The position numbers were made by a program, and so were the translations under genes. This document shows, piece by piece, positions 12,734 to 27,951 of a DNA stretch of 43,546 nucleotides. The notes beneath the pieces are model-generated. The model made no database searches, had not been told where the DNA came from, and saw only the letters and a program-made list of their open reading frames with translations. Within the stretch, counting starts at the first letter, position 1, and every line of letters starts with the position of its first letter. The stretch comes from Acidobacteriota bacterium (lineage in GTDB: Bacteria; Acidobacteriota; JAAYUB01): positions 1-43,546 of the forward strand of contig JAFGRT010000057.1 in assembly GCA_016935015.1 (NCBI GenBank), given 5' to 3'.

Positions 12734-13453
12734 TTAATTGCGGCCCTCATACTTGTGCAGCAGATCGATGAGTGCCTTGGCTTCCTGGGGAAACGGCCAG
12801 GTGGGGTTGTTGAGAACCTGCTTATAGTCCACCATTTTGCCGTAAAAGGCGGTGTTGGCTTCGCTGTCGTTGGTCAGAGCCGAGCCGTCCAGGGAGATAC
12901 CGGCGAAGGCGCCCTTGCTGCGGGCATAGGCGAAAATCTCGGCTTTCAACTGAATGTCGGTCCCCGCCTCGGCATGCCGTCCCACCGGGCCGGCCGCCAC
13001 GCTGGCATCGGCGCCCAGCTTCACCTTGTTGCCCAGCAGAGCCCGGTAGCCGCGCTCGTTGTTGACCACCAGCACCAGGTCGGTGGAGGAGCCGCCGATC
13101 TGCAAACCGAAACTGCCGCCGGTGATGGTGACAAAGGACGGGCTGCTCCATTTGCCGTTGTCCAGGCGGTGGATCATGATGCCGTGCCCGCGGCGTCCGC
13201 CGAAACCCAGGGCCGCCTTGATGACGCCGGGGATGATCACCAACGCCTCGCATTTTTCCAGCAGCCATTCGGGGATGCCTTCTTCGGGGATGTTCATGAT
13301 TTCCTGTAGCACTTCGGTGCTGTCGTTCATACGTTCCACTGTCTTTGCCTTGTCGATGGCCAGGACCGGCGGCGTCATGACAGCGGCCATGATCAGCATC
13401 AACCAAACAGCGACGGATGCACGCAACAGGGAATGTATTCCATTGGTTGTCAT
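12734..13453 (-). CDS. exported SYLF-domain (Ysc84-like) lipid-binding protein
   Basis: A 239-residue protein with a hydrophobic export signal (about residues 12-32, ending PPVLA) and then a complete SYLF domain. The domain is recognised by EALVIIPGVIKAALGFGGRRG, ITGGSFGLQIGGSSTDLVLV and VAAGPVGR. SYLF domains bind phosphoinositides in eukaryotes; bacterial members are exported and of unclear role, possibly envelope lipid binding. I placed the start at the ATG at 13453, which has AAGGAG 10 bases upstream. An ATG seven codons earlier (13474) is possible but has a poor ribosome site. It lies downstream of the ftsZ terminator, so it is a separate unit. Confidence 0.85.
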   Translation of the reverse strand: MTTNGIHSLLRASVAVWLMLIMAAVMTPPVLAIDKAKTVERMNDSTEVLQEIMNIPEEGIPEWLLEKCEALVIIPGVIKAALGFGGRRGHGIMIHRLDNGKWSSPSFVTITGGSFGLQIGGSSTDLVLVVNNERGYRALLGNKVKLGADASVAAGPVGRHAEAGTDIQLKAEIFAYARSKGAFAGISLDGSALTNDSEANTAFYGKMVDYKQVLNNPTWPFPQEAKALIDLLHKYEGRN

Positions 13454-13536
13454 AACCGGTTGTCTCCTTTTCATAGTGTTTTCCCGTTTAGATGAGCCGG
13501 GACAGGGGAAGATTCCGGGGGTTGAACACGGGGAAT

Positions 13537-13574
13537 AAAAAGTGATGGGCTCCTAGGGGCAGGGAGCCCATCAC
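13537..13574 (-). terminator. intrinsic terminator of the dcw cluster
   Basis: A 12-bp perfect stem (13542-13553 with 13563-13574) and a 9-base loop. On the minus strand it is followed by TTTTT. It closes the long transcript ending in ftsZ. Confidence 0.87.
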
Positions 13575-13676
13575 CGGTTAGAGGAGAGGAAAGACATGCT
13601 GTGTTCAGGACATTCAGGTCGGTCAAGGCGGGTGCGCCCCATTATTTCTCCGTTTTTCTTCTCAAAGATACCGATC

Positions 13677-14864
13677 CTATGCCTTGCGGCGCAGATACGT
13701 CGGTACATCCAGAAGCCGTGATGGCTCCGGTTCGATCTTCGTTTGGAAATTCAGTTCGTCAAAGGTATCCGGCTGCGGGGCCTTGACGGTTGCGGCCGCC
13801 GGCCGGTAGCCGCCGTTTCCCTTGTGGACGACTTCCGCCGCCGGCTCTGGGGTTTCCGTTTCCGCTTCGCGCTGCTTGTGGGGATCGAAACCGGTGGCGA
13901 TGATGGTGATCTTGATCTCCTCCGTCATGTCGGAATCGGTGACGACACCCCAAATGATGTTGGCGGACGGATCCGCCGCCTCCTCGATAATGGAAGCCGC
14001 GTCGTTGACATCCTGCATGGTCAGGGTCAGGTCACCCGTGATGTTCATGATGATGCCCTTGGCCCCCTTGATGTTGGTTTCTTCCAGCAGCGGATTGAAA
14101 ATGGCGCTGCGGGCCGCTTCCGCCGCCCGGTTCTCGCCGCTGCCGGTGCCGATGCCCATCAGGGCCAGGCCCATGTCCGTCATGATGGTGCGGACGTCGG
14201 CGAAGTCGAGGTTGATGAGGCCGGGCACCACAATGACGTCGGAAATTCCCTGAACGGCCTGGCGCAGGATGTCGTCGCACATGGTGAACGCCTTGATCAG
14301 TGGAGTGCTGAGGTCCAGCGCCGACAACAGCCGCTCGTTGGGAATGGTGATGACGGTGTCCACGCACTCCCGCAGTTCCTTGAGGCCGAAGTCGGCCTGG
14401 GACATACGTTTGCGCCCCTCGAAACGGAACGGCTTGGTGACGACGCCGATGGTCAGCGCTCCAAGTTCCGATGCCAGAGAGGCGATGATGGGCGCCGCGC
14501 CGGTGCCCGTCCCGCCGCCCAGACCGGCGGTGATGAACACCATGTCCGAGCCTTCCAGGTGCTCGATGATGCGCTCGGTGTCTTCCAGGGCGGCCGCCCG
14601 GCCGATTTCCGGATTGGCGCCGGCGCCGAGACCCTTGGTCAGTTTCGCGCCCAGCTGCAGCTTGATGGGCGCGAGACACCGGTCCAGCGCCTGGACGTCG
14701 GTGTTGGCGGCGATGAATTCCACACCCTGCACTCCGGATTCCATCATCCGGTTCACGGCGTTGCAGCCGCCGCCGCCCACGCCGATGACCTTGATCTTGG
14801 CACCGACCTTAAATTCCTCCTCGAACATGAAATAACGGTTGTTTTTTTCATTCATGTCTTCCAT
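13677..14864 (-). CDS. ftsZ: cell division GTPase FtsZ
   Basis: A 395-residue tubulin-like GTPase that polymerises into the division ring. It shows the nucleotide-binding [13 protein letters not shown], the tubulin signature [10 protein letters not shown] and the synergy loop [12 protein letters not shown] flexible Pro-rich linker follows from about residue 320, and the protein ends in the conserved peptide [10 protein letters not shown], which binds FtsA and other partners. It is last in the dcw operon, 53 bases after ftsA, with AGGAGG ahead of the chosen ATG. A second ATG three codons in is less well placed. Confidence 0.98.
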
Positions 14865-14917
14865 CTTTCCTCCTTCTACCTGTACGGTCTCCTTTTTGAT
14901 TTATCAAATGATTGAAT

Positions 14918-16174
14918 TTAAACAATTTCCTGTAGCCAATGCCGGAATCGGGCCGATGTCTTCTGCAGGAAGTTCAACTCCGGCGTAAATTTGTCCGTCA
15001 ACGATGACGGCCGGCGGGTGTGGCCGAGCTGGGCCTTGACCAGCAGCCCCAGCAGTGCGGCATGGATCGGACTGTGCAATTCTTCGGGCAGGTCCGTCGA
15101 CAGAACCGGCATCCCCAAACGGCTGGGGATGTCGGTGAATTTCTCTGTGTAGGGCACCAGCTGGTTGAGCAGGGAGCCGCCGCCGCAAAGCACCACCGAA
15201 GTCAGCTGGGTATTCTCGAAACCGGCCATCTCGATGGAAGCCTTGACCATTTCCAGGATCTCTTCGGTACGCGGCTGAATGATCTCGGCGAGGATCTGGC
15301 GGGCGATCTGGCGTGTTCGTCCTGAACCGGCGCTGGTGATGTCGAACATCTCGTTGGGTTCGATGGCATGCAGGTCCATGGCCGCGAACATTTGCTTGAC
15401 CCGCTCCGCCTCGGCCAGGGTGGTGCGCAGGCCGACGATGATGTCCCGGGTGAAATTGTCGCCGCCCACCGGCAGGCAGAAACTGTGCTGCAGCTTGCCT
15501 TTCTGGAAAATGAGGGCGGTGGTGTTGCAGGAACCGATACTCAGGAGCAGGCAGCCGAACTCTTTTTCCTCAGGAGTGAGTACGGCTTCGGCCGCCGCCA
15601 GGGGCTCCACCAGCATCTTGCCCACGGCCAGCCCGGCCTGGTTCACCGCCTTGGTGAAGTGGGTGATCTGGGTTTTGGGCAAGGCCAGGATATGGAGACC
15701 CACTTCCAGGCGAGTCCCTTCCATCTTGACGGGATTGTCCACTTCCAGATTGTTGTCTACCAGACATTTCCGCATCACGTAATGGAGCGGCTCCAGGGAA
15801 TTGGAGAGGGTGATGTTGCGTGCGGCGTCGATGCATTTCTGCAGATGATTCTCGGTGATGGGGACGGCGGTGTTGCCCAGGGTGATGCCGCCGCTGCTGT
15901 TAAAACTTTTGAGGCCCCGGGCGCTGATGCTGACCCACGGTTGTTTCATGCGTACCTGGGCCCGGCGTTCCGTCTCCGTGACGCACGCCTCGATGGTCCG
16001 GCTCAGGGCGTCAAGGTCCACCACCACACCGTTGCGGATTCCTGCCGTCGGCTGCAGGCAATAACCCAGTACGTCCAGCCGGCCGACCTCGGCGCAGTGA
16101 CACACAGCGGCGGACACTTTGGACGTGCCGATGTCCAATGCGCTCAGTATGACGTCTTTGGATTTAAATGCCAT
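14918..16174 (-). CDS. ftsA: cell division protein FtsA
   Basis: A 418-residue actin-like ATPase that tethers FtsZ to the membrane. The N-terminus has the phosphate-1 motif (ALDIGTSKV), and VVLCGGGSLLNQL marks the adenosine region. The extreme C-terminus (ARFRHWLQEIV) is the expected amphipathic membrane-targeting helix. It lies between ftsQ and ftsZ as in most bacteria. A 118-base gap separates it from ftsQ, unusually wide for this cluster. Confidence 0.96.
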   Translation of the reverse strand: MAFKSKDVILSALDIGTSKVSAAVCHCAEVGRLDVLGYCLQPTAGIRNGVVVDLDALSRTIEACVTETERRAQVRMKQPWVSISARGLKSFNSSGGITLGNTAVPITENHLQKCIDAARNITLSNSLEPLHYVMRKCLVDNNLEVDNPVKMEGTRLEVGLHILALPKTQITHFTKAVNQAGLAVGKMLVEPLAAAEAVLTPEEKEFGCLLLSIGSCNTTALIFQKGKLQHSFCLPVGGDNFTRDIIVGLRTTLAEAERVKQMFAAMDLHAIEPNEMFDITSAGSGRTRQIARQILAEIIQPRTEEILEMVKASIEMAGFENTQLTSVVLCGGGSLLNQLVPYTEKFTDIPSRLGMPVLSTDLPEELHSPIHAALLGLLVKAQLGHTRRPSSLTDKFTPELNFLQKTSARFRHWLQEIV

Positions 16175-16292
16175 GATCCTGCTCCCTTACAGGCCTGCGG
16201 CGAACAGCCGTCCGGGCACGCTCCGGCGGCCGGGCCTGGCCACGAAAAAGACAATCGCCGGCTGAGGATGGTTGCAGCGTGTTGTTTCATGC
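16175..16292 (-). other. gap between ftsQ and ftsA
   Basis: The only sizeable gap in the distal half of the cluster. It could hold an ftsA promoter, though I see no good -35/-10 pair. A minus-strand ORF of about 45 codons starts two bases after the ftsQ stop and runs into ftsA, but it has no ribosome site and no recognisable features. Confidence 0.35.
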
Positions 16293-17159
16293 TTACAGGT
16301 TCTCATAGGGTCTCACGATAATCTTGTCGTCGTAGCGCATGTCGATCTCCGAAATGGGCCCGTTTTCCTCGCGGGCCATATCGATGACCTGAAAATAGTT
16401 TTCCAGACGTTTGCGGAAATTCTCGTGACCGAGATGCACCCGGGGCGCGCCTTCCAGCGGGATGACCACCACGTCAGCCAGATCGGCCAGGTCCACTTCC
16501 GACAGCCGGCCGGACAGGCCGTTTTCACCGGCGTCGATCTCCCGGACGAATTGCAGGTAGCGCCGGATGCGCTCGCGGTTCTCGTCATGGCTCAGTGGAT
16601 CGCCGTCATTCATCAGACCGATGAGGACCGGGCAATCGATATCGTGCCGGGACGGCTGGAATTCCGACAGGAAATCGCCGTTGGTGTCGAACAGCCAGAG
16701 GCGATCGGTACGGGCCACGCCCACCGGTCGTTTCTCCCGAACCACGATCCGCACCTGGTCGGGCAGAATCTTGCGGATGGTCACTTCCCGGACCCAGTTC
16801 ACGCTCTCGATGCGTGCCCGCAGTTCCTCGATGTCCAAGATGATGAGATTGTCCGGAAAATGCTTGTGAATCAGGGACCGGATGTCCTTGGGATTCAAAT
16901 ATTCGCCCGTTTCGATGGTGATATTGTCGGCATGCACCGTGTAGACGGGCAGATGCTTGCCGTATTCATACAGCAGATACAGCGCCACTACCGCCAGAAA
17001 GAAGAGGGTGCTCTTGACGATGAGCAGGGCTACCATCCGCTTGCCGCTGAGCGGCAGCGTGGAGGGGTGGTCCGGATTCCGCCGCAGGAAGGCGTCCTCG
17101 TCGGCCAGGGGGATGCCCATCTTGATGCCTTCTTCGCCGTGCAGTCGCCGAGGATTCAC
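16293..17159 (-). CDS. ftsQ: cell division protein FtsQ (DivIB)
   Basis: A 288-residue bitopic membrane protein. A short cytoplasmic N-terminus is followed by one membrane helix (about residues 43-64). A POTRA domain follows (from about residue 72: VYTVHADNITIETGEYL), then the FtsQ beta domain. It bridges early and late division proteins through FtsL and FtsB. The start codon is GTG: a perfect GGAGG lies six bases upstream, inside the end of murC, and only one base separates the two genes. An ATG 13 codons further in has a poorer site. Confidence 0.92.
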   Translation of the reverse strand: MNPRRLHGEEGIKMGIPLADEDAFLRRNPDHPSTLPLSGKRMVALLIVKSTLFFLAVVALYLLYEYGKHLPVYTVHADNITIETGEYLNPKDIRSLIHKHFPDNLIILDIEELRARIESVNWVREVTIRKILPDQVRIVVREKRPVGVARTDRLWLFDTNGDFLSEFQPSRHDIDCPVLIGLMNDGDPLSHDENRERIRRYLQFVREIDAGENGLSGRLSEVDLADLADVVVIPLEGAPRVHLGHENFRKRLENYFQVIDMAREENGPISEIDMRYDDKIIVRPYENL

Positions 17160-17160
17160 G

Positions 17161-18573
17161 CTATGCCTCCTTTTTCAGACGGTCCAGAACCAGCTGACCG
17201 ACTTCGTGGATATTCCCGGCGCCGAAGGTGATGATCATGTCACCCGGAGCGGCCCGGTCGGTGATTTGAGCGGCCAGACGATGAAAATCCGGCTCGAAAT
17301 ATACCTGTTTGTGCCCATGGGCGCGGATGGACTGATACAGTCCCTCGCCGGTGATATCGGCCCGCGGTTTTTCGCCGGCCGGGTAGATCTCGGTGCAAAA
17401 CAGCAGATCGGCGTTGAAAAAGGCCGTGGAGAACTGCTCCCACAACGACTGTACGCGGCTATAGCGATGAGGCTGGAAAACGGCCACGACACGGCGCGGG
17501 GACAGGGCGCGGGCCGCCTCGAGGGTGACCCGGATCTCCGTGGGATGATGGCCGTAATCGTCGATAACGCGAACACCGCCCACTTCACCCAGCAGCTGAA
17601 AACGCCGGTCCACGCCTTCATAGGCCTGGAGCCCCGCCTGAATCTGCGGCACCGGCAGCGAGAGCTCCAGTCCCGTGGCGATGGCCGACAGGGAATTCAG
17701 GATGTTGTAGGTGCCGGGGACCTGCAAATGGAACTCACCCAGGTCCCGGTTCTGGTAGATGGCCCGGAAGTGGCTGCCGCCGCCTTCCTGGGCGAGGATT
17801 TCGGCGGTGAGGTCGGCGCTCTTGGAAAAACCGTAGGTGATATAGCGGCGCTCAATGCGTGGAATGACGGACTGGACATTGGCATCGTCCAGGCAAAGAA
17901 TGGCCAGTCCATAGAACGGAATGCGATTGATATAGTCAAGAAAGGTCTGCTTGAGATCATCCATGGTCCCGTAAAAATCCATGTGTTCGGCATCGATGTT
18001 GGTGATGACGGCGATGGTGGGGAACAACTTCAGAAAGGAACCGTCACTTTCGTCGGCTTCCGCCACCAGCAAGGGGCCTTGACCCAACCGGGCGTTGCTG
18101 CCGAAGATGTTCAGGCGGCCGCCGATGACGATGGTGGGATCCAGTCCGCAGTGATGCAGCAGCACGGAGATCATGGATGTCGTGGTGGTTTTGCCGTGGG
18201 AACCGGCGACGGTGACGGCATACTTCAACCGCATCAGCTCGCCCAGCATTTCGGCCCGCCGGATGACGGGGATCTGCAACTGGTGCGCCCGCTCCACTTC
18301 GATGTTGTCCCGGGTGATGGCCGATGAGACGACCACCACATCGGCGTTGGCCACATTCTCGGCGGAATGCCGTGCGACGAACCGGCAGCCGAGAGATTGC
18401 AGGCGCGTGGTGGTGTGCGACGTGCGGATATCGGAGCCGGATACCTCAAATCCCAGGTTCAGCAGCACTTCGGCGATGCCGCTCATGCCGATGCCGCCGA
18501 TGCCGACGAAGTGTACCCGGCGCATCTTGCCGAACATGCCGTCGCTCCAGTGGGTGGTGTCGGGGGATCTCAT
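17161..18573 (-). CDS. murC: UDP-N-acetylmuramate-L-alanine ligase MurC
   Basis: A 470-residue Mur ligase that adds L-alanine to UDP-MurNAc with ATP, the first peptide step of peptidoglycan synthesis. The N-terminal Rossmann domain reads HFVGIGGIGMSGIAEVL, the central ATPase loop is GSHGKTTTTSMI, and DDYGHHPTEI is the MurC-specific stretch in the C-terminal domain. It overlaps ftsW by 4 bases, where many bacteria have murG between the two. It is followed directly by ftsQ, where murB or ddl often sits. Confidence 0.97.
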   Translation of the reverse strand: MRSPDTTHWSDGMFGKMRRVHFVGIGGIGMSGIAEVLLNLGFEVSGSDIRTSHTTTRLQSLGCRFVARHSAENVANADVVVVSSAITRDNIEVERAHQLQIPVIRRAEMLGELMRLKYAVTVAGSHGKTTTTSMISVLLHHCGLDPTIVIGGRLNIFGSNARLGQGPLLVAEADESDGSFLKLFPTIAVITNIDAEHMDFYGTMDDLKQTFLDYINRIPFYGLAILCLDDANVQSVIPRIERRYITYGFSKSADLTAEILAQEGGGSHFRAIYQNRDLGEFHLQVPGTYNILNSLSAIATGLELSLPVPQIQAGLQAYEGVDRRFQLLGEVGGVRVIDDYGHHPTEIRVTLEAARALSPRRVVAVFQPHRYSRVQSLWEQFSTAFFNADLLFCTEIYPAGEKPRADITGEGLYQSIRAHGHKQVYFEPDFHRLAAQITDRAAPGDMIITFGAGNIHEVGQLVLDRLKKEA

Positions 18574-19670
18574 TCCGGCACCTCCCGCGATATATTGAGC
18601 ACCAGGCCGACAGCCAGCAGGCTGATGAGCAATGACGTGCCTCCCATGCTGATGAAGGGGAGGGGAATCCCCTTGGTCGGCAGCAGATGGATGACCATAC
18701 TGCTATTGATGAGCACTTCCAGCAGGATGAGACTGATGGCGCCGGCGCCCAGCACCTGGTTGAAGGGATGGGGGCTCTTCAGGGAAAGCCGCATGCCGCG
18801 CAGGAAGAGGTAGCCGAAGAGCACGGCCAGGATGATGCAGCCCAAAAATCCGGCTTCTTCGGCGACGACGGCGTAGATGAAATCCGTATGGGGCTCGGGC
18901 AGGAAGAAGAGTTTCTGCGTGCTCTCGCCCAGACCCAGACCCCAGAAACCGCTGTGACCGATGGCAATGAGGGACTGCTTGATCTGGTAGCCTTTGCCCA
19001 GGGGGTCGGCCGCGGCGTTGGCAAAGGTCTTGATACGTTCCAGCATGTAAGGCGACAGCAGGATTACCCCGATGACGGCCGGAATGACCATCAGGCCCAG
19101 GGCGATCATCTGTCGCAGCGGGAAACCGGCGAAAAAGAGCATGATCACGGTGATGGCCAGCAGGATCATGGCGTTGCCCAGGTCGGGTTCGCGGACGATC
19201 AGGGCCATCATCGGGCCGATGACCAGGCCGACCCGGACCAGGTGGCGCCAGGGTCTGTCGGACAGATCGGGGAAGCGGGCACAATACCAGGCCACAAATA
19301 TGATGACGGTCAGCTTGGCCAATTCCGACGGCTGGAAGGAGACGCCGGCCATGTGAATCCAGCGGCGGGTGCCGTTGATGGGCGTCTGGGTGAACACCAG
19401 TAATAATAATCCAGCGGTCAGGATGATGAGGCCGTAGACCACCCATTTCTGTTGCAGCAGGCGCAGGGAGACTTGGGTGGAGGCGAAGAAGATGAAAAAG
19501 CCGATGCCCGTCCACATGAGCTGTCGATAAAACAGGAAATGGGGCTGGCCGAACCGCCCCAGGCTGATGGGCAGGGAGGCGTTGAAGATCATCACCAGGC
19601 CGAAACCCACCAGGAAGAGGGTGGCGATGAACAATCCGCGATCGATATTCCAATCCTGTTTGATCAACAT
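18570..19670 (-). CDS. ftsW: peptidoglycan glycosyltransferase FtsW
   Basis: A 366-residue polytopic SEDS-family protein with about ten membrane helices. Family hallmarks are QPSELAKL, EPHTDFIYAVVAEE (containing the catalytic Asp) and KGIPLPFISMGGTSLL. With FtsI it polymerises septal glycan from lipid II. It overlaps murD upstream by 7 bases and murC downstream by 4, so the three genes are tightly coupled. Position in the cluster supports FtsW rather than RodA. Confidence 0.95.
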   Translation of the reverse strand: MLIKQDWNIDRGLFIATLFLVGFGLVMIFNASLPISLGRFGQPHFLFYRQLMWTGIGFFIFFASTQVSLRLLQQKWVVYGLIILTAGLLLLVFTQTPINGTRRWIHMAGVSFQPSELAKLTVIIFVAWYCARFPDLSDRPWRHLVRVGLVIGPMMALIVREPDLGNAMILLAITVIMLFFAGFPLRQMIALGLMVIPAVIGVILLSPYMLERIKTFANAAADPLGKGYQIKQSLIAIGHSGFWGLGLGESTQKLFFLPEPHTDFIYAVVAEEAGFLGCIILAVLFGYLFLRGMRLSLKSPHPFNQVLGAGAISLILLEVLINSSMVIHLLPTKGIPLPFISMGGTSLLISLLAVGLVLNISREVPE

Positions 19671-21067
19671 CGGTGTTTTTCCTTCTGCAGCGCCAGGACC
19701 GCCTGGCGAAACACCTCGCCGCGATGCTCGAAATCATCGAACATGTCGAAGCTGGCACAAGCCGGCGACAGGAGGACCACATCCCCGGCGGCGGACAACT
19801 CCAGGCCACGACGCACCACTTCATCGAAATCGCGGCAATGCGTCAGAGGCGCGGTTCCGGCCAGGGCCCGCTCGATGAGGGGCGCGGCCTCACCCACCAG
19901 CAGCATGTGGCGGACATGCGCCTGAATCGTTTCCCGCAACGAACTGAAATCGGATCCCTTGTCCTTGCCGCCCAGGATCAGGACCACGGGCTGCCCGTAC
20001 GATTCCAGCGCCAGGCGCGTGGAATCGATGTTGGTGGCCTTGGAGTCGTTGACGAACAGCCGCCCGTCGATTTCCGCCACCGTCTCCAAGCGATGGGCCA
20101 GTCCGCGGAACGAAACGATTCCCTGACGAATCTCCACGGTGTTCAATCCACAGAGTCGGGCGGCCAGAGCGGCGGCCAGGCAATTTTCCAGATTGTGGCG
20201 GCCGGGCAACGGCAGTTCGGCCCGCGCCATGAGGGACAGGGACTCATCGTCCAGCCGCAGCCAGAGTCGGTCGTCCACCAGGCCGGCCCCGGGGATGTCC
20301 GCGGGGGACGGCCGCCGCGTCGAGTCGAACCAGAGCACGCGGCAGGTCAGGATGGGGGCCTGGCTGACCAGCCACGGATCCCGGGCGTTGAGTACGGCAA
20401 AATCCGAGGCGGAACAATTTTTAAACAAGGCCCACTTGGCGCGGGCGTATTCGTCGACGGAATGATAACGGTCCAGATGATCGGGGGTGATATTGAGAAT
20501 CAGGCCGATGTGCGGCCGGAACGTGTCGATAGTTTCCAGCTGGAAGCTCGATAGCTCCGTGACGTACGTCGTTGTCGGCGTATCTCCGGGGATGAATTCA
20601 CACAATGCCCGGCCGATGTTGCCGGCGGCGTGGGCCGGCCGCCCGGCCTGCTGCAGGATATGGGCCAACAATGCGGTGGTGGTGCTCTTGCCGTTGGAAC
20701 CGGTGATACCGATCATGGTGCCGTGGAGATGCCGGGCGGCCAGTTCCACTTCGCTCCAGACAGGAATCGCACGCCGGCGGGCCGCCTGCACAAAGGGGAT
20801 CCGTTCGGGGACGCCCGGGCTGAGGATGACGGCAGCGGCACCGTCCAGCAGGGAAACAGGGTGCCGGCCGAAGACCGTCTCCAGCGAACCGCCTGCATTG
20901 CCGGCCGTCCGGAGCAGGGCCGCCAGCACCGCGTCAAAATCGGTGGCGGGACGGATATCCGTCACCCGGACGATGTGTCCCTCGCCCAGCAGGACCTGCG
21001 CCGCCGCCTGGCCACTGCGGGCCAGTCCCAGCACCACATAGATCTGCCTGTCCGTGGACCGGCTCAT
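19664..21067 (-). CDS. murD: UDP-N-acetylmuramoyl-L-alanine-D-glutamate ligase MurD
   Basis: A 467-residue Mur ligase that adds D-glutamate. It has the N-terminal UDP-binding domain (YVVLGLARSGQAAA), the ATP loop GITGSNGKSTTT, and NDSKATN in the C-terminal domain, a MurD hallmark. It overlaps murE by 4 bases. In the usual cluster murF and mraY lie between murE and murD; here they are absent without any residual gap. Confidence 0.97.
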   Translation of the reverse strand: MSRSTDRQIYVVLGLARSGQAAAQVLLGEGHIVRVTDIRPATDFDAVLAALLRTAGNAGGSLETVFGRHPVSLLDGAAAVILSPGVPERIPFVQAARRRAIPVWSEVELAARHLHGTMIGITGSNGKSTTTALLAHILQQAGRPAHAAGNIGRALCEFIPGDTPTTTYVTELSSFQLETIDTFRPHIGLILNITPDHLDRYHSVDEYARAKWALFKNCSASDFAVLNARDPWLVSQAPILTCRVLWFDSTRRPSPADIPGAGLVDDRLWLRLDDESLSLMARAELPLPGRHNLENCLAAALAARLCGLNTVEIRQGIVSFRGLAHRLETVAEIDGRLFVNDSKATNIDSTRLALESYGQPVVLILGGKDKGSDFSSLRETIQAHVRHMLLVGEAAPLIERALAGTAPLTHCRDFDEVVRRGLELSAAGDVVLLSPACASFDMFDDFEHRGEVFRQAVLALQKEKHRC

Positions 21068-22542
21068 GATGCACTCTCCCGTCTCCGCCGCAACTCCGCC
21101 AGGGCTACCTCGCGATCCACAAAGGGGAGGATCCGGGGGCCAATGATCTGCCCGGTCTCGTGTCCCTTGCCGGCCAGCAGCACCGTATCGCCCGCCTCGG
21201 CCAGCCCGATGGCCCGGGCGATGGCGGCGCGGCGGTCCGTCAGCCGGATGTAGTCGTCACGGATTTCCCGGATGCCGGGGATGATCTCGTCGATGATGGC
21301 CTCGGGATCTTCGGACCGGGGATTGTCGCTGGTGACGATCACCATGTCGGCCAGTTCGGCCACGATACGGCCCATCCGCGGCCGCTTCGTCCGGTCACGG
21401 TCGCCGCCGCAGCCGAAGACCACGATCAGTCGTCCCGGAGTGATTTGCCGCAGGATCTGGCAGGCGTTGCGCAACGCGTCTTCGGTGTGGGCGTAGTCCA
21501 CCAACACCCGGAAATCCTGGCCGCTGTTCACTTCTTCCATCCGACCCGGAATGGGGGCTACCTCGGCCAAAGCCTCGAGGACGGCGCCGGCCGGAATGCC
21601 GTACAAAAGCCCGCAGACAAAGGCTTGGGCCACGTTGTGCACGTTGCCCATGCCCGTCAGCGGCGCGGCCAGCCGGTAGGCCGTGCCCTCGTGATGCAGG
21701 GTGAAACGAAGACCCGCGGTATCGAACGCCGGTTCGCCGATGCGGAAGGAAGCGCCGGCCCGACGGCCGGTGGAATGTTTCTCGCCGGGAAAATCGTCGA
21801 ACAGGGCGGCACCATGGTCGTCGTCCACGTTGACGATGATTCGCTGCGGCAGGGGACCGTTCCGCCCGTCAAACAGCCGGCATTTGGCGTCCCAGTAGTG
21901 GTCCAGCGAGCCGTAATAGTCCAGGTGATCCTGGGTAAAGTTGGTCAAGATCACCGTGTCGAAGGCCGCGCCGTACACCCGCTGCAGGGTCAGGGCGTGG
22001 GCCGACACTTCCATGACCAGGTGCGTGGCGCCGGCGGCGATGACGTCGTCGGCGAAAGCGGCCAGATCCGGCGCTTCGGGGGTGGTGCGCTGGGCCGGAA
22101 CATCACGGCCGGCATGGCGGTAGGAGATGGTGCCCATCACCGCCGGACTGCCACCGCCCTTGGTCAGGATCGCTTCCAGCAGGTAGGTCAGGGTGGTTTT
22201 GCCGTTGGTGCCGGTGATGCCGATGTAAGGAACGCGGAGGTCCGGGCGCCGGTAGAGTTCCAGCGCCAGGACCCCCATCGCCTGACGGATGTTCGTCACC
22301 TGGACCCAGTTCAGATTCCTGAAAGAAACAGAAGGGGGCTGTTCGGAAATAACTGTGTTCGCGCCCCCTTCTTGTGCTGAGGGGATAAATTCGTGTCCAT
22401 CAAATTTTTCGCCCCGGACTGCGGCAAAGAGGAAGTCCCGGCCGACCTTGCGCGAATCGCAGGCGATCCCGCGAACGTTGGCGTCCAGGTTGCCGGTAAT
22501 GGAAATGACTTCCAGATGTTCAAGAACATCCCGCAGTAACAT
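21064..22542 (-). CDS. murE: UDP-MurNAc-tripeptide synthetase MurE, meso-DAP type
   Basis: A 492-residue Mur ligase that adds the third residue of the stem peptide. The ATP loop is GITGTNGKTTLTYLL. The DNPRSEDP motif contains the Arg typical of meso-diaminopimelate-adding enzymes, as opposed to the lysine-adding ones, so the cell wall is probably of the DAP type. The gene starts 54 bases after ftsI. Its stop overlaps the murD start by 4 bases. Confidence 0.97.
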   Translation of the reverse strand: MLLRDVLEHLEVISITGNLDANVRGIACDSRKVGRDFLFAAVRGEKFDGHEFIPSAQEGGANTVISEQPPSVSFRNLNWVQVTNIRQAMGVLALELYRRPDLRVPYIGITGTNGKTTLTYLLEAILTKGGGSPAVMGTISYRHAGRDVPAQRTTPEAPDLAAFADDVIAAGATHLVMEVSAHALTLQRVYGAAFDTVILTNFTQDHLDYYGSLDHYWDAKCRLFDGRNGPLPQRIIVNVDDDHGAALFDDFPGEKHSTGRRAGASFRIGEPAFDTAGLRFTLHHEGTAYRLAAPLTGMGNVHNVAQAFVCGLLYGIPAGAVLEALAEVAPIPGRMEEVNSGQDFRVLVDYAHTEDALRNACQILRQITPGRLIVVFGCGGDRDRTKRPRMGRIVAELADMVIVTSDNPRSEDPEAIIDEIIPGIREIRDDYIRLTDRRAAIARAIGLAEAGDTVLLAGKGHETGQIIGPRILPFVDREVALAELRRRRESAS

Positions 22543-22596
22543 AGGTGTATCCCTTCAGCACTTCAATAACGGACGGTTGCGCCGTCCGCGTATCCC

Positions 22597-24732
22597 TTAG
22601 CGCCTCTCGGCGCGATCTTTTTCCGTTTCCGTCGATATGGTGCCGTGGTTGCGGGTGAGGCGTTCCCGCGGTATGCTGAATATCTCGATTCCCAGCAGCT
22701 GGGAAATTTTTTCCGTATCGTTGGAAAACCAGACACTGCATCGGGTATTGGGGTTGATCCGCACGCCGGCCGGCGGTATCTGCTCCACGGCGATGCCGGA
22801 GCCGCTGGGATTCAACAGCAGCCCCATCCGGGCGCACTCCTTGATGACATGGCGCAGGCTCTTGCCGCTGAAGTCCGGCATGAGGAAGGAATCCTCGGGG
22901 ATCAGAGCGATGACCGTCTCCCGAGGGCCCGACATCCCGTCGAGCAGGAAATCATCCAGCGGTGCGACGGAGGCGCGGCTCGCGGTGGGCGCCGGGACGC
23001 CGGCCGGCGGTTTCTGCTGGGCCAGCTCGGGCGGGGCTGTGGTTTCCGTGGGTTCGATCCGGCGCAGCAGGAAGATTTCCTGGGCCAAATGGTGAAAAAC
23101 CGGCGCGGCGACCTCGCCGCCGTGATACAGCGGCCGGGGCGCCTCGATGATGATGCCGGCGACGAAAGCGGGATTGTCCGCCGGCGCGAAGCCGATAAAT
23201 GAGGCCGTGAAGTCCGTGGGGGAGTATGTTTTCAATTGGGGATCAAAGATCTGGCCTGTGCCGGTTTTGCCGGCGACCCGGTAGCCGGGTACGGCCGCAC
23301 GGCGGCCCGTCCCTGCTTCCACGGTCCGGACCAGTGCGTTGCGGATCAGGCCGGCGGTGCGAGCCGAGAGGATGCGCACCCGCTCCGGGCTCATTTCACG
23401 CACCAGGTTCCCCTGATCATCCAGAATCCGGTTCACTACCATGGGGCGAACGAGAAAGCCGCCGTTGGCGATGACGCCCATTGCCCGTACGATTTGCAGG
23501 GCATTCACCCCGATCTCCTGGCCCATGGAGATGGCCCCGATGGAAATACCGCTCCAACGGGAAGCCGGCTCCAGGCGGCCGGTGATCTCCGCCGGCAGGT
23601 CCACCCCGGTCTTGTCGCCGAAACCGAACATGCGAATGTGTCGATACAGGCTCTCCTCTCCCATGCGCAGGCCGAGCTTGATGGCCCCCACATCGGAGGA
23701 GTTGGCCAGGATATCGGCAAAGGCCAAGTCGCCGAATGGCTTGTGATCGCGAATGATATGGCCCGACAGGGAGATATAACCGTTACCGCAGAAAATAATT
23801 TCATCGGGTGAAGCCAGGTTTTCCTCCAGAACGCCGCTGCAGGTGATGATCTTGAAGGTAGATCCTGGTTCGAAGTACTGTTCCAGGGCCCAGTTGCGCA
23901 GGCTGGCCTGCGAGCTGCGCTGCAGGTTATTGGGATCGAAATCGGGCCAAACCGCCAGGGCCAGAATCTGGCCCGAATCCGGTTCCATGACGACGATCAT
24001 CCCTCGGCGGGCCTGATTATCCGTCACGACGCGGAGCAGTTCGCGCTCGGCGATATGCTGGATCTGGTTGTCGATATTGAGGATCAGGGTCTGTCCCGGT
24101 TCGGAGGCGGTGATGACCTGGGTGGTCAAGATCTTGCTGAGGCCGTCTTTCTGCAGAAAGAGTTGGCCTTGACTTCCGCTCAGGGCATGGTTGTACTGTT
24201 TCTCCAGCCCCTCCAGGCCGACCTCCAGACCGTTCCGGTAGGTGATGGCCCCCAGGACATGGGCCCCCAGCCGGCCTTTGGGATAGATTCGCTTGTTCTC
24301 ATCCAGGAAACCCACACCGGCCAGGTTCATCTGCTTCAGCGGCCGGGTGACGTCGGCGGGTACATATTTCCGAATATAGCGGAATTTAAGTTCCCCCTCC
24401 ATTTTTTGCAGGATCTGGTCCGTATCCATTTTCAGGGCGGCGGCCAGGGCGGCCGCGGTGGCGGCCTTGTCCGTGATGTTGGGGGTGTAGATGAACACGG
24501 ATTCCAGCGGCACGCTAACGGCCAGCGGCTCCAGGGAACGGTCCAGGATCCGGCCGCGGGAGGCCGGCACCTGGATGAGGTCATCTTTCTGCATCCGGGC
24601 CAGCTCGCGGTAACTATCGGTTTCGAATACCTTAATATAGAAGACACGGCCCAGGATGACCAGTTGCCATAAAAGCACCACGGCCATGAAAATCAGCACC
24701 CGGTTGCGATGCAGGGGCGTCCGTGAAATCAA
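22597..24732 (-). CDS. ftsI: division transpeptidase FtsI (class B PBP) with a PASTA domain
   Basis: A 711-residue class B penicillin-binding protein. An N-terminal membrane helix (about 11-31) is followed by the dimerisation region and the transpeptidase domain. The latter has nucleophile Ser291 in STFK, SSD at 345-347 in place of the usual SxN, and KTG at 489-491. The Asn to Asp change in the second motif is unusual. A C-terminal tail from about residue 625 contains one PASTA-like repeat (FLMPDFSGKSLRHVI onward), which in other bacteria binds glycan or beta-lactams. It starts 3 bases after ftsL. With FtsW it makes septal peptidoglycan. Confidence 0.95.
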   Translation of the reverse strand: MISRTPLHRNRVLIFMAVVLLWQLVILGRVFYIKVFETDSYRELARMQKDDLIQVPASRGRILDRSLEPLAVSVPLESVFIYTPNITDKAATAAALAAALKMDTDQILQKMEGELKFRYIRKYVPADVTRPLKQMNLAGVGFLDENKRIYPKGRLGAHVLGAITYRNGLEVGLEGLEKQYNHALSGSQGQLFLQKDGLSKILTTQVITASEPGQTLILNIDNQIQHIAERELLRVVTDNQARRGMIVVMEPDSGQILALAVWPDFDPNNLQRSSQASLRNWALEQYFEPGSTFKIITCSGVLEENLASPDEIIFCGNGYISLSGHIIRDHKPFGDLAFADILANSSDVGAIKLGLRMGEESLYRHIRMFGFGDKTGVDLPAEITGRLEPASRWSGISIGAISMGQEIGVNALQIVRAMGVIANGGFLVRPMVVNRILDDQGNLVREMSPERVRILSARTAGLIRNALVRTVEAGTGRRAAVPGYRVAGKTGTGQIFDPQLKTYSPTDFTASFIGFAPADNPAFVAGIIIEAPRPLYHGGEVAAPVFHHLAQEIFLLRRIEPTETTAPPELAQQKPPAGVPAPTASRASVAPLDDFLLDGMSGPRETVIALIPEDSFLMPDFSGKSLRHVIKECARMGLLLNPSGSGIAVEQIPPAGVRINPNTRCSVWFSNDTEKISQLLGIEIFSIPRERLTRNHGTISTETEKDRAERR

Positions 24733-24735
24733 CGA

Positions 24736-25128
24736 CTATCCTCCGTTGGGCGGGGCAGGATCCTTCTTTACCGCCACCATGCGGGTGGTTCGGGTCGCCG
24801 AATGGAGAAAGCGGATCTTCTCCATCTCCACCTGGAGCAGGCCCATTCGTTCGGCCTCCTGTTCCAGGCGGGCGAGGGAAGTCAGCTCCGCTTCACGCGT
24901 TTGCAGGAAGGCCCGTTCCTGTTCCAGCTGGCGCAGGGTCTTCTTGGCCAGCTCAATGCTGTAATCCACCTGACGGATCTGATTGGGAATGTAGATGTAG
25001 CCGATGACAATCAGGGAAACGAGCAAAATCCCCGCGGCGAACAGAAATATGTCGCGGGAACTGCCGTCCCGGTTCGTTTTGCGGATGGGAAAATTGACGA
25101 TTTCCCTGTCGTAAAAGTGACCAACCAT
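24736..25128 (-). CDS. ftsL: cell division protein FtsL-like
   Basis: A 130-residue bitopic protein with a single membrane helix (about residues 28-47) followed by a coiled-coil heptad region (about 50-95). This is the architecture of FtsL/DivIC proteins. Sequence conservation in this family is low, so the call rests on size, topology and its position between rsmH and ftsI, which is the standard ftsL locus. It ends 3 bases before ftsI begins. Confidence 0.88.
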   Translation of the reverse strand: MVGHFYDREIVNFPIRKTNRDGSSRDIFLFAAGILLVSLIVIGYIYIPNQIRQVDYSIELAKKTLRQLEQERAFLQTREAELTSLARLEQEAERMGLLQVEMEKIRFLHSATRTTRMVAVKKDPAPPNGG

Positions 25129-25226
25129 TTAAATCCCCGATAAAAACTCAGCCGTTCTGTCCGGCCGATATGCTCAACTTCCGGCCGGCGGTCGGGCGAA
25201 GAGAACAGCGCCTCGCCGGTGTCGCC

Positions 25227-26171
25227 CTACCGTTTTTCAACCGCCCGCATCTTGGCACTGCGCGAACGGGGATTGGCGGCCTGCTCTTTCGGACCCGGCG
25301 TGATCGGACGGGTGGTCAGCAGGTGTACCTGTTCGCGGCGGGGGCATTCGCACAGCTCAACCGGTTTGTGACAAATGCAGCGTCCCGCCAAGCGGGCAAA
25401 GGCTCGTTTCACGATGCGGTCTTCCAGTGAATGAAAGCTGATGATCACCATCCGGCCGCCCGAAACCAGGCTGGGCAGGATGTTTTCGATGAAATCGCCC
25501 AGGCCTCCCAGCTCGTCGTTCACAGCGATCCGGAGCGCCTGGAACGTCCGGGTGGCGGGATGGATTTTCCCCGGGCGGTGGCCCAGGATTTCCCGCACCA
25601 GCGCAGACAGCTCCGCCGTGGTCTGAATTCGTTTGCGCGCCCGTTGCCGGACGATGGCGCGGGCGATGGTCCGCGAGCGCCTCTCTTCGCCGAAGCGGTA
25701 GAGAAGATCGGCCAGTTCGGTTTCGGGCAGGCTGTTCACCAAGTCCGCCGCCGTGGTTTTCTGCTGCCGGTCCATGCGCATGTCCAGCGGGCCCTCGTGC
25801 TGGAAGGAAAATCCGCGCTGCGGCTCGGCCAGTTGGAAGGAGGAGACGCCGAGATCCAGCAGCAGTCCGTGGATATGGGAAACACCCAGGCGGTTCAGCA
25901 CCAGGGGCAGGTTCTTGAAATTTTCCCGGAAACAGTCCACCCGGCAGTCGCTGCCGGCCAGACGCTGTCGGGCCGACGTCAGGGCGGACTCGTCGCGGTC
26001 GATGGCGATGAGCCGCCCCCGGACGGAGAGATGGGCGGCGATCAACGCGGCGTGGCCGCCCAGCCCGACGGTACCGTCCACATAGACACCGTCCGGGTGC
26101 GTCAGCAGCGTGGTGACCGCCTCCGTGGCCAGCACACTGACATGTTCGGGCTGCGCGCTCGTTCCGTTCAT
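25227..26171 (-). CDS. rsmH: 16S rRNA m4C1402 methyltransferase RsmH (MraW)
   Basis: A 314-residue SAM-dependent methyltransferase that modifies C1402 in the decoding centre of 16S rRNA. It contains YVDGTVGLGGHA (SAM loop), LLDLGVSSFQLAEPQRGFSF and VVISFHSLEDRIVK-like stretches (here MVIISFHSLEDRIVK). The open frame extends upstream to 26216, overlapping mraZ, but I chose the ATG at 26171. GAGG lies five bases before it and the protein then begins close to the conserved HVSVL, giving the family length. Confidence 0.95.
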   Translation of the reverse strand: MNGTSAQPEHVSVLATEAVTTLLTHPDGVYVDGTVGLGGHAALIAAHLSVRGRLIAIDRDESALTSARQRLAGSDCRVDCFRENFKNLPLVLNRLGVSHIHGLLLDLGVSSFQLAEPQRGFSFQHEGPLDMRMDRQQKTTAADLVNSLPETELADLLYRFGEERRSRTIARAIVRQRARKRIQTTAELSALVREILGHRPGKIHPATRTFQALRIAVNDELGGLGDFIENILPSLVSGGRMVIISFHSLEDRIVKRAFARLAGRCICHKPVELCECPRREQVHLLTTRPITPGPKEQAANPRSRSAKMRAVEKR

Positions 26172-26203
26172 GGATGCCTCGACCATCGCCCGCTCGTTCA
26201 TGA

Positions 26204-26644
26204 CTAAAACCCGCATTCCCGTAACGCCGCAAACGTGGCTTCGTCCAATGGATGTTCATCCACATAGGTTTCCATATGCTGGGCATTCATCACCTGCAGG
26301 GTATGCAGGTTCGAGATGACGGCCACATCTTCTTCCAGATCCGCGCGTTGGCGGATATGCGGTGGAATGGCCACCCGGCCCTGATCGTCCACGGTTTTGG
26401 CGGCGCCGAAAAAGTTCGCGATGGTGAGAAAGCGGTGCTTGGCTTCCACGGAATCCGGCATTTGCAGGAGCTTCTGTTCCTTGGCTTTCCAGATCTCCAG
26501 GGGGTAGATGGTCAGTTGCCGGTCGCGGATCACGGTCATGAAAACCTCCGGACCATATTCGGCGAACAGCGTCTGGCGATGCTGGGCCGGGATCTTGAGT
26601 CTCCCTTTGTTGTCAATTTTGGCTTGATCTCCACCGCGAAACAT
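26204..26644 (-). CDS. mraZ: transcriptional regulator MraZ
   Basis: A 146-residue protein with two SpoVT/AbrB-type half-domains, each carrying the DxxGR signature (DNKGRLKIP and DDQGRVAIP). MraZ forms ring oligomers and binds direct repeats upstream of the dcw operon, repressing (E. coli) or activating (mollicutes) it. Such repeats are present upstream here. The ATG has no good ribosome site (TTTTAAG directly before it), which may keep expression low. Confidence 0.96.
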   Translation of the reverse strand: MFRGGDQAKIDNKGRLKIPAQHRQTLFAEYGPEVFMTVIRDRQLTIYPLEIWKAKEQKLLQMPDSVEAKHRFLTIANFFGAAKTVDDQGRVAIPPHIRQRADLEEDVAVISNLHTLQVMNAQHMETYVDEHPLDEATFAALRECGF

Positions 26645-26699
26645 CTTAAAATAAACCGCTTGTTGGATTGAATAAAAAATCCCTGTTTTGGGGTTTAGT

Positions 26700-26739
26700 G
26701 CTCCACTTCAGTCCACTTTGAACAACTTTAGTCCACTTT
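26700..26739 (-). promoter_or_regulatory. MraZ box: four direct 10-base repeats
   Basis: On the minus strand four adjacent decamers begin AAAGTGGACT, AAAGTTGTTC, AAAGTGGACT and GAAGTGGAGC. The AAAGTG core recurs at exactly 10-base intervals, matching the known MraZ-binding arrangement. The first repeat overlaps the -10 element, so bound MraZ should block RNA polymerase. Confidence 0.78.
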
Positions 26740-26764
26740 ACACCACCTGTCGCGAAATTGTCAA
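26735..26764 (-). promoter_or_regulatory. promoter of the dcw cluster
   Basis: On the minus strand a perfect TTGACA (26759-26764), an 18-base spacer and TAAAGT (26735-26740). The leader is about 84 bases. The -10 is shared with the first MraZ repeat. Confidence 0.7.
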
Positions 26765-26871
26765 GGGTAAAAAGAAAGCAAGTTTAAGTTTTTATTCATT
26801 TTTGGGTCGAACCGGGCCGGGGGAAGGGTCCGGCCCGGACGCCGCGGTAGCGGCCGGGGCGGAGGAACATC

Positions 26872-27951
26872 ATGAAAACCGGTATTGTCGGTCTCAGACG
26901 GGTGGGCAAAACCACCCTCTTCAATATTATCACCGGCGCCGCAGCGCCCACCGGCCCGGGGGGCAAAGTCAAGGCCCATCTGGGCGTGGCCGCCATGCCG
27001 GACGAACGCCTGGATTACCTGGGCCGGTTGTATGAGCCGCGCAAGATCACGGCGGCCACCGCCCAGTTCGTGGACATGCCGGGCGTGGAACCCGATGAGA
27101 TGAAGGAGAGCGCCTACCTGACCGGCTTGCGGCTGGTGGATGCCCTGGTCCATGTGGTGCGCACATTCCGGGATGAGACGGTGCCGCACCCCGCCTCGAC
27201 GGTGGATCCGGGGCGGGATGCGGCCGACATGGAACTGGAAATGATCCTGGCCGACCTCTTTCAGGCTGAGCGGCGGCTGGAGAAGCTGGACAAGGATTTG
27301 CGCAAGGTCAAGGACAAGGACCTCCTGGCAGAGCAGGCGGTGCTGCAACGGGTCCGAGAGTTTCTGGCCGGCGAGCGCCCCCTGCGGGAGCTGACGCTGA
27401 GCCCCGACGAGGAAAAGCGGATCCGCGGCTTTACCTTCCTGTCCAGGAAACCATTGCTCCTGGTGCTCAACATGGACGAAGCGGACGTGGCCTATTTGGG
27501 GACGGCCGTGGACCATTTTGGACTGACCGGGTGGCGGGATCGGACCGGCGTGGCCCTGACGGGCGTCTGCGGCAAGATCGAGGAGGAATTCAGCCGGCTG
27601 ACCCCCGAAGACGCGCGCACTTTCATGGACGATCTGGGCATCCCCGAACCGGGCCTGCATCGTCTGCTGCGAGAGAACTACCGGCTCTTGGGCCTGATCA
27701 CCTTTTTCACCGTGGGCAAGGATGAGGTCCGTGCCTGGACCGTCCGCCGGGGGACCACCGCCCCCGAAGCAGCCGGGACGATTCATTCGGACCTGGAAAA
27801 GGGATTCATCCGGGCCGAAATCGCTGCCTATGACCAGTTTGTGGCCTGTGGGTCCATGCCCGCCCTGAAGGAGCGGGGTCTGCTTCGACTGGAAGGCCGT
27901 GATTACGTGGTGCAAGATGGCGATATCATGCTGGTCCGGTTCAACGTCTGA
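26872..27951 (+). CDS. divergent YchF/Obg-family GTPase-like protein
   Basis: A 359-residue protein aligned over its whole length with YchF (363 residues). The C-terminal TGS domain is clear: FTVGKDEVRAWTVRRGTTAP, EKGFIRAEIAAYD and VVQDGDIMLVRFNV. The P-loop reads GLRRVGKTT rather than GLPNVGKST. The switch I and switch II regions are shortened and lack the GLVKGAS..GEGLGN stretch (DMPGVEPD remains), while NMDE fits the YchF-specific specificity motif. It may bind nucleotide but with altered switching. It is divergent from the dcw cluster, with GGAGG ahead of the ATG. Function unknown; YchF itself is an ATPase linked to ribosomes and stress. Confidence 0.82.
   Translation: MKTGIVGLRRVGKTTLFNIITGAAAPTGPGGKVKAHLGVAAMPDERLDYLGRLYEPRKITAATAQFVDMPGVEPDEMKESAYLTGLRLVDALVHVVRTFRDETVPHPASTVDPGRDAADMELEMILADLFQAERRLEKLDKDLRKVKDKDLLAEQAVLQRVREFLAGERPLRELTLSPDEEKRIRGFTFLSRKPLLLVLNMDEADVAYLGTAVDHFGLTGWRDRTGVALTGVCGKIEEEFSRLTPEDARTFMDDLGIPEPGLHRLLRENYRLLGLITFFTVGKDEVRAWTVRRGTTAPEAAGTIHSDLEKGFIRAEIAAYDQFVACGSMPALKERGLLRLEGRDYVVQDGDIMLVRFNV

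Follow-up and report, generated by a model that had tools for sequence, protein, structure and literature searches.

The window, that is, the whole stretch of DNA analysed here, comprises 43,546 nucleotides from an Acidobacteriota bacterium (assembly GCA_016935015.1, contig JAFGRT010000057.1). Its minus strand carries an mraZ-to-ftsZ cluster, and a repeat array lies on the same strand upstream of mraZ, at the head of this dcw cluster. A preliminary description of the DNA had given the cluster a length of 13 kb, and the gene matches listed below, with mraZ as the first gene and ftsZ as the last, agree with about that length.

26872–27951, plus strand: ychF, divergent from mraZ across the gap 26645–26871 (domain/profile match)
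26204–26644, minus strand: mraZ, 146 amino acids, DxxxR at residues 11–15 and 86–90 (PF02381, E 5e-21)
25227–26216, minus strand: rsmH (mraW) (domain/profile match)
24736–25128, minus strand: ftsL, a weak assignment (profile score below cut-off, no Pfam match)
22597–24732, minus strand: ftsI/spoVD-type transpeptidase with PASTA (profile match)
21064–22542, minus strand: murE (profile match)
19664–21067, minus strand: murD (profile match)
18570–19670, minus strand: ftsW (profile match)
17161–18573, minus strand: murC (profile match)
16293–17159, minus strand: ftsQ, a weak assignment (profile score below cut-off)
14918–16174, minus strand: ftsA (profile match)
13677–14864, minus strand: ftsZ (profile match), with the cluster ending at 13677

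The 11 genes identified at 13677–26644 do not include murF, mraY, murG or murB. Intergenic gaps are small, the largest being 98 bases before ftsL and 118 bases before ftsA; together with the gene order, they make it plausible that MraZ controls the full 13 kb. A scan of 13200–26700 found two weak minus-strand promoter-like sites inside the cluster and, on both strands, 18 terminator-like sites against 11.1 expected, so internal control of the cluster is possible as well. A hairpin at 25168–25148, in the gap between rsmH and ftsL, was considered as a terminator that would speak against a single unit, and was rejected as the stretch holding it folds no better than shuffled sequence (z -0.17). 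No terminator-like hairpin was found between rsmH and ftsL in the scanned stretches of two relatives.

MraZ proteins consist of two MraZ repeats with one DxxxR motif in each. The product of mraZ carries the motifs DNKGR and DDQGR, and D11, R15, D86 and R90 are invariant in an alignment of 13 sequences. The protein scores 74.9 bits with the Pfam domain PF02381, above the curated cut-off of 23. The NCBIfam MraZ equivalog cut-offs are not reached (TIGR00242, 76.5 bits against 98.35), which was weighed against the gene order with rsmH, a gene found near mraZ in 51 of 51 wide-flank loci, window included. A single mraZ was detected in the genome search, where the gene gave two matches, one per domain. 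When the PDB was searched with phmmer, the MraZ protein by itself gave no match; a profile of 13 homologues, the window's included, matches the solved MraZ chains 1n0e, 9qlr, 9qlg and 9sx6. The structure model built from the single sequence was poor (mean pLDDT 42.8).

Upstream of mraZ, the following elements are found in the order of the minus strand.

26759–26764, minus strand: −35-like TTGACA (consensus match)
26748–26753, minus strand: GCGACA, alternative −35 (alignment with the TTGACA of the sister genus)
26740–26749, minus strand: box unit 0, CAGGTGGTGT, within the −35/−10 spacer and in register (8.0 bits)
26735–26740, minus strand: −10-like TAAAGT, spacer 18, overlapping units 0 and 1 (consensus match)
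26730–26739, minus strand: box unit 1, AAAGTGGACT, equal to the consensus (13.7 bits)
26725–26730, minus strand: second TAAAGT, which may serve as the −10 in place of the first (spacer 17) or be a −10-like hexamer that lies 10 bases past it (sister-genus alignment)
26720–26729, minus strand: box unit 2, AAAGTTGTTC, degenerate, GTTG where the others have GTGG (3.8 bits)
26710–26719, minus strand: box unit 3, AAAGTGGACT (13.7 bits)
26700–26709, minus strand: box unit 4, GAAGTGGAGC (11.3 bits)

Thus, TTGACA is followed after a spacer of 18 bases by TAAAGT, which runs into AAAGTGGACT / AAAGTTGTTC / AAAGTGGACT / GAAGTGGAGC, decamers that occupy 26739–26700 in steps of exactly 10 bases. The preliminary description had reported TTGACA 18 bases upstream of the −10 and decamers starting with AAAGT or GAAGT, and both are present. 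It had also spoken of four exact repeats, of which the phasing stands, being exactly 10 bases; the copies themselves differ. Units 1 and 3 are identical and unit 4 is close to both, unit 2 is degenerate, and a fifth unit lies upstream. Because this unit 0, with its moderate score, sits inside the spacer, the array starts before the −10.

The window contains one mismatch-free instance of the pattern of four RAAGT at 10-base steps; 100 shuffled versions of it contain none, even with a tolerance of two mismatches. When the 250 bases preceding mraZ were shuffled 2000 times, the score of the array was never reached. Pattern searches of the organism's own genome (assembly 96.78% complete, 237 contigs) gave no second array; at up to three mismatches, one place besides the array was matched, and the reversed-pattern control likewise matched one. 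A search of 26400–27000 with Rfam gave nothing above the gathering scores. Additionally, a perfect 10-base inverted repeat, TGAATAAAAA / TTTTTATTCA, flanks the array at 26669–26678 and 26789–26798 with 110 bases between its arms; being A+T-rich, it may be due to chance.

Conservation of the array was assessed across the phylum. Among 149 genomes searched, 135 have mraZ, and the upstream regions of 111, window included, were compared; left out were seven further genomes of genera already represented, one more, and 16 without a place among the matches listed. In these 111 regions, the mraZ strand has 131 GTGG pairs at a distance of exactly 10 bases and the other strand 2; at a distance of 20, the counts are 71 and 0. 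Three phased units score above the 99th percentile of shuffles in 75 regions, window included. The remaining 36 have no array by that score, and some of them still hold phased GTGG pairs (G006, G008, G026 and G067). Drawn up from 200 units of 69 other genomes, the box consensus is AAAGTGGAC(T/C), the sequence that units 1 and 3 of the window carry. The box weights exclude the window's own genome; since an exact GTGG was required of every unit, the core was set in advance and weighs heavily in the bit scores, and only the flanks are learned. Arrays are present in four of four genomes of the window's family and in two of two of the sister family in the order. Hence the repeats are conserved in close relatives, as judged in silico, a point on which the preliminary description had let its reading depend. 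Its assignment of an MraZ box before mraZ gains strong support from the comparison, the same motif, 10-base phase, strand and place recurring in most regions (75/111, window included). In another family, f23, five loci (L077, L081, L085, L086 and L102) carry arrays of about five boxes. Three of these, L081, L085 and L086, have no TTGACA-like hexamer (5/6) in front of the array, which suggests another promoter type or more boxes per operator.

The position of the array relative to the −10 could be compared using promoters that were chosen regardless of the array. Such a promoter was found in 84 of the 111 regions, in 59 cases with a phased GTGG pair close to it. The first phased GTGG starts 0–12 bases past the end of the −10 in 54 of the 59. 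The combined search for promoter and phased pair, applied to 2220 shuffled regions as a control, returned 112 promoters and no phased pair. The five exceptions are the window (−12 and −2), G121 (−2) and three genomes of the sister genus, which are nearly identical in the region and count as one event. They have a strictly phased pair at +19, plus a GTGG at −12, which lies 11 bases before a degenerate box.

A stricter choice of hexamers leaves 55 genomes. Among them, GTGG starts somewhere in the 26 bases that finish with the −10 in 4/4 genomes of the window's family versus 1/51 others. The sole other genome is G124, with its GTGG at −20; its locus, L091, has, besides the phased array, an isolated GTGGAC 3 bases past the −35 and 24 bases before that array. 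Two genomes of the window's order and another family (G004 and G005) show the usual placement, at +6. All four genomes of the window's family, which belong to two genera, have a GTGG within the spacer and the −10 embedded in the array. Given these counts and the placement in the order-mates, having the −10 within the array seems to be characteristic of the window's family. It was not set apart as a separate kind, since the window would stand at −2 without unit 0, at the edge of a continuous range.

The promoter elements themselves are consensus matches. The pair TTGACA/TAAAGT agrees with the consensus at 10 of 12 positions, TAAAGT alone at 4 of 6. By alignment with the sister genus, GCGACA and the second TAAAGT would form an alternative promoter; both −10 candidates fall within the array. 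In the sister genus, the −10 is TAAAAT, closer to the consensus (11/12 including its −35), and the box beneath it is worse; in the window, AAAGT is shared by the box and the −10. We infer from these two genera a possible trade-off between −10 quality and box quality.

The second hexamer raises the question of a double code, in which the repeats would act both as MraZ operator and as a pause signal that holds sigma. The two −10-like hexamers are TAAAGT and TAAAGT, 10 bases apart, in the window and TAAAAT and TAAATT, 11 bases apart, in the sister genus. A second −10-like hexamer 10–11 bases past the first is found in 4/4 members of the family versus 3/80 other promoters, with 2.9 of 84 expected by shuffling. 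In E. coli, according to PMC7876045, one class of sigma70-dependent promoter-proximal pauses requires a −10-like element placed 11 bases after the −10. That study (Nat Commun 2021) lists the E. coli mraZ promoter as pausing, in the other class. If the double code were true, polymerase would be stalled where MraZ competes for the DNA. Nevertheless, a functional double code is considered unlikely, because the repeat itself explains the coincidence: once the array has slid upstream far enough for a box to provide the −10, a second −10-like hexamer comes with the next repeat, 10–11 bases on. Furthermore, −10-like hexamers are commoner at 18 and 28 bases (8/84 and 11/84).

Several known systems resemble the array. 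MraZ boxes and repression have been described in E. coli (Eraso et al. 2014, as reported in PMC8475190 and PMC7761207). As read from the K-12 sequence, E. coli shares with the window TTGACA, a spacer of 18, an imperfect −10 and, ahead of mraZ-rsmH and on the strand of mraZ, GTGG cores that follow one another every 10 bases. The difference is that the first GTGG of K-12 starts 7 bases after the −10 TAAACT, whereas GTGG cores of the window begin 12 and 2 bases before the −10 end. In Burkholderia cenocepacia, MraZ is reported to gel-shift a fragment with four recognised repeats of 7 bases, separated by 3-base spacers. This operator, PmraBc, is like that of the window in its four 7-base repeats and 3-base spacers and unlike it in lying downstream of the −10, over the start site. 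The Mollicutes MraZ box, AAAGTG[T/G] (Fisunov et al. 2016, through a paper on M. genitalium), agrees with units 1 and 3, which start AAAGTGG; host, promoter and cluster are different. Whereas the boxes of E. coli and B. cenocepacia come after the −10 and cover the start site, the window's array reaches up into the spacer. That placement would be peculiar to those promoters and no defining feature of the MraZ box. No account of MraZ boxes inside a −10 appeared in the literature listings, which cover mostly papers outside subscription.

A strict pattern scan for TAAAGT fused to a clean box covered 84,980 species genomes, from which the organism's own and very near genomes may have been excluded; its pattern misses units such as unit 2 of the window. 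It returned five stretches; translation of the matched strand gave an MraZ match at the Desulfurella acetivorans locus alone. The locus of strain A63 (L129) is like the window in having TTGACA, a spacer of 17 and TAAAGTGGAACAAAGTGGAATAAAGTGGA, with the −10 fused to box 1, and unlike it in having three clean boxes and no fifth box in the spacer. As the start codon stands directly behind the third box, the operator fills nearly the whole presumed leader. The stretches from a Clostridiaceae MAG, Streptococcus, Nostoc and Desmonostoc were taken as chance, with no MraZ match on the matched strand, to which the check was confined; at the Nostoc locus (L127), it covered about 440 bases downstream.

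The repeats are therefore very probably an MraZ operator of the ordinary kind, as predicted from sequence: the consensus of other genomes equals units 1 and 3, and phased GTGG pairs stand 131 to 2 on the mraZ strand. The use of the box's AAAGT as part of the −10 would be a local variant common to the window's family. From published work in other bacteria, repression of the cluster by MraZ is likely. A ring-shaped MraZ oligomer (its shape taken from a citing paper) would grip several GTGG boxes, which lie on one helix face 10 bases apart. Bound MraZ would span the −10 and the start region, and polymerase would be kept from opening or leaving the promoter. In this way, MraZ would restrain the production of itself and of the mraZ-to-ftsZ cluster, whose expression would be confined to the extent that MraZ is scarce. 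For this locus, MraZ binding, repression and an influence extending over all 11 genes are what we infer. The preliminary description had taken the overlap with the −10 as an argument for repression. The overlap is real and strengthens that argument; its force is weaker than claimed, since repression does not need the overlap. In most genomes compared, the boxes lie just past the −10, around the presumed start, where a bound protein would obstruct polymerase as well.

The opposite effect, activation by MraZ bound here or both effects depending on dose, is regarded as quite improbable. A box within the −35/−10 spacer occupies the position from which MerR-type activators act. However, MerR promoters have a lengthened spacer, unlike the 17–18 bases of the window, and the array extends over the −10 and some 35 bases past it, where a bound ring should exclude polymerase. 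Published observations fall on both sides. MraZ overexpression in M. gallisepticum went with more FtsZ, as cited in the M. genitalium paper. In contrast, the same paper reports that deletion of mraZ in M. genitalium leads to upregulation, raising mraW, MG_223 and ftsZ, and it cites E. coli as a case of repression.

Very improbable, next to the predicted MraZ operator, is a role of the repeats for the divergent ychF, alone or together with mraZ, or for another regulator. The arrangement itself recurs: counting the window, 13 of 51 wide-flank loci have ychF diverging from mraZ, and each of the order's six genomes is represented in that number. The sole plus-strand promoter-like match in 26600–26900 (9/12, 26624–26652) points through the array toward ychF. 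In the sister genus, the starts of mraZ and ychF are about 136 bases apart, so that one operator could touch both genes. Yet arrays stand before mraZ also where the flanks have no ychF match (e.g. L005, L008, L013, L028 and L029), phased GTGG pairs keep almost exclusively to the mraZ strand (131 versus 2), and in the sister genus (L016) the equivalent stretch lacks a promoter-like match on the strand of ychF. The organism's genome holds two ychF-family genes. Upstream of ychF, at 26812–26838, CCGGGCCGG ... CCGGCCCGG form a G+C-rich inverted repeat of 9 perfect pairs, whose arms are 9 bases apart. Chance, or a local DNA duplication devoid of binding function, is scarcely credible for the array: there is a 20-base duplication of 80% identity, but the shuffles, the phase, core and place kept across genera, and the agreement with the known MraZ box motif stand against it.

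The comparison yields a positional rule (54/59 at 0–12 bases past the −10) and a usable box consensus (200 units, 69 genomes). It extends the published model of dcw control, by sequence comparison, to another lineage, in which the system appears otherwise ordinary. The window's family would offer a natural positional variant, useful for asking whether MraZ blocks the −10 or the start region.
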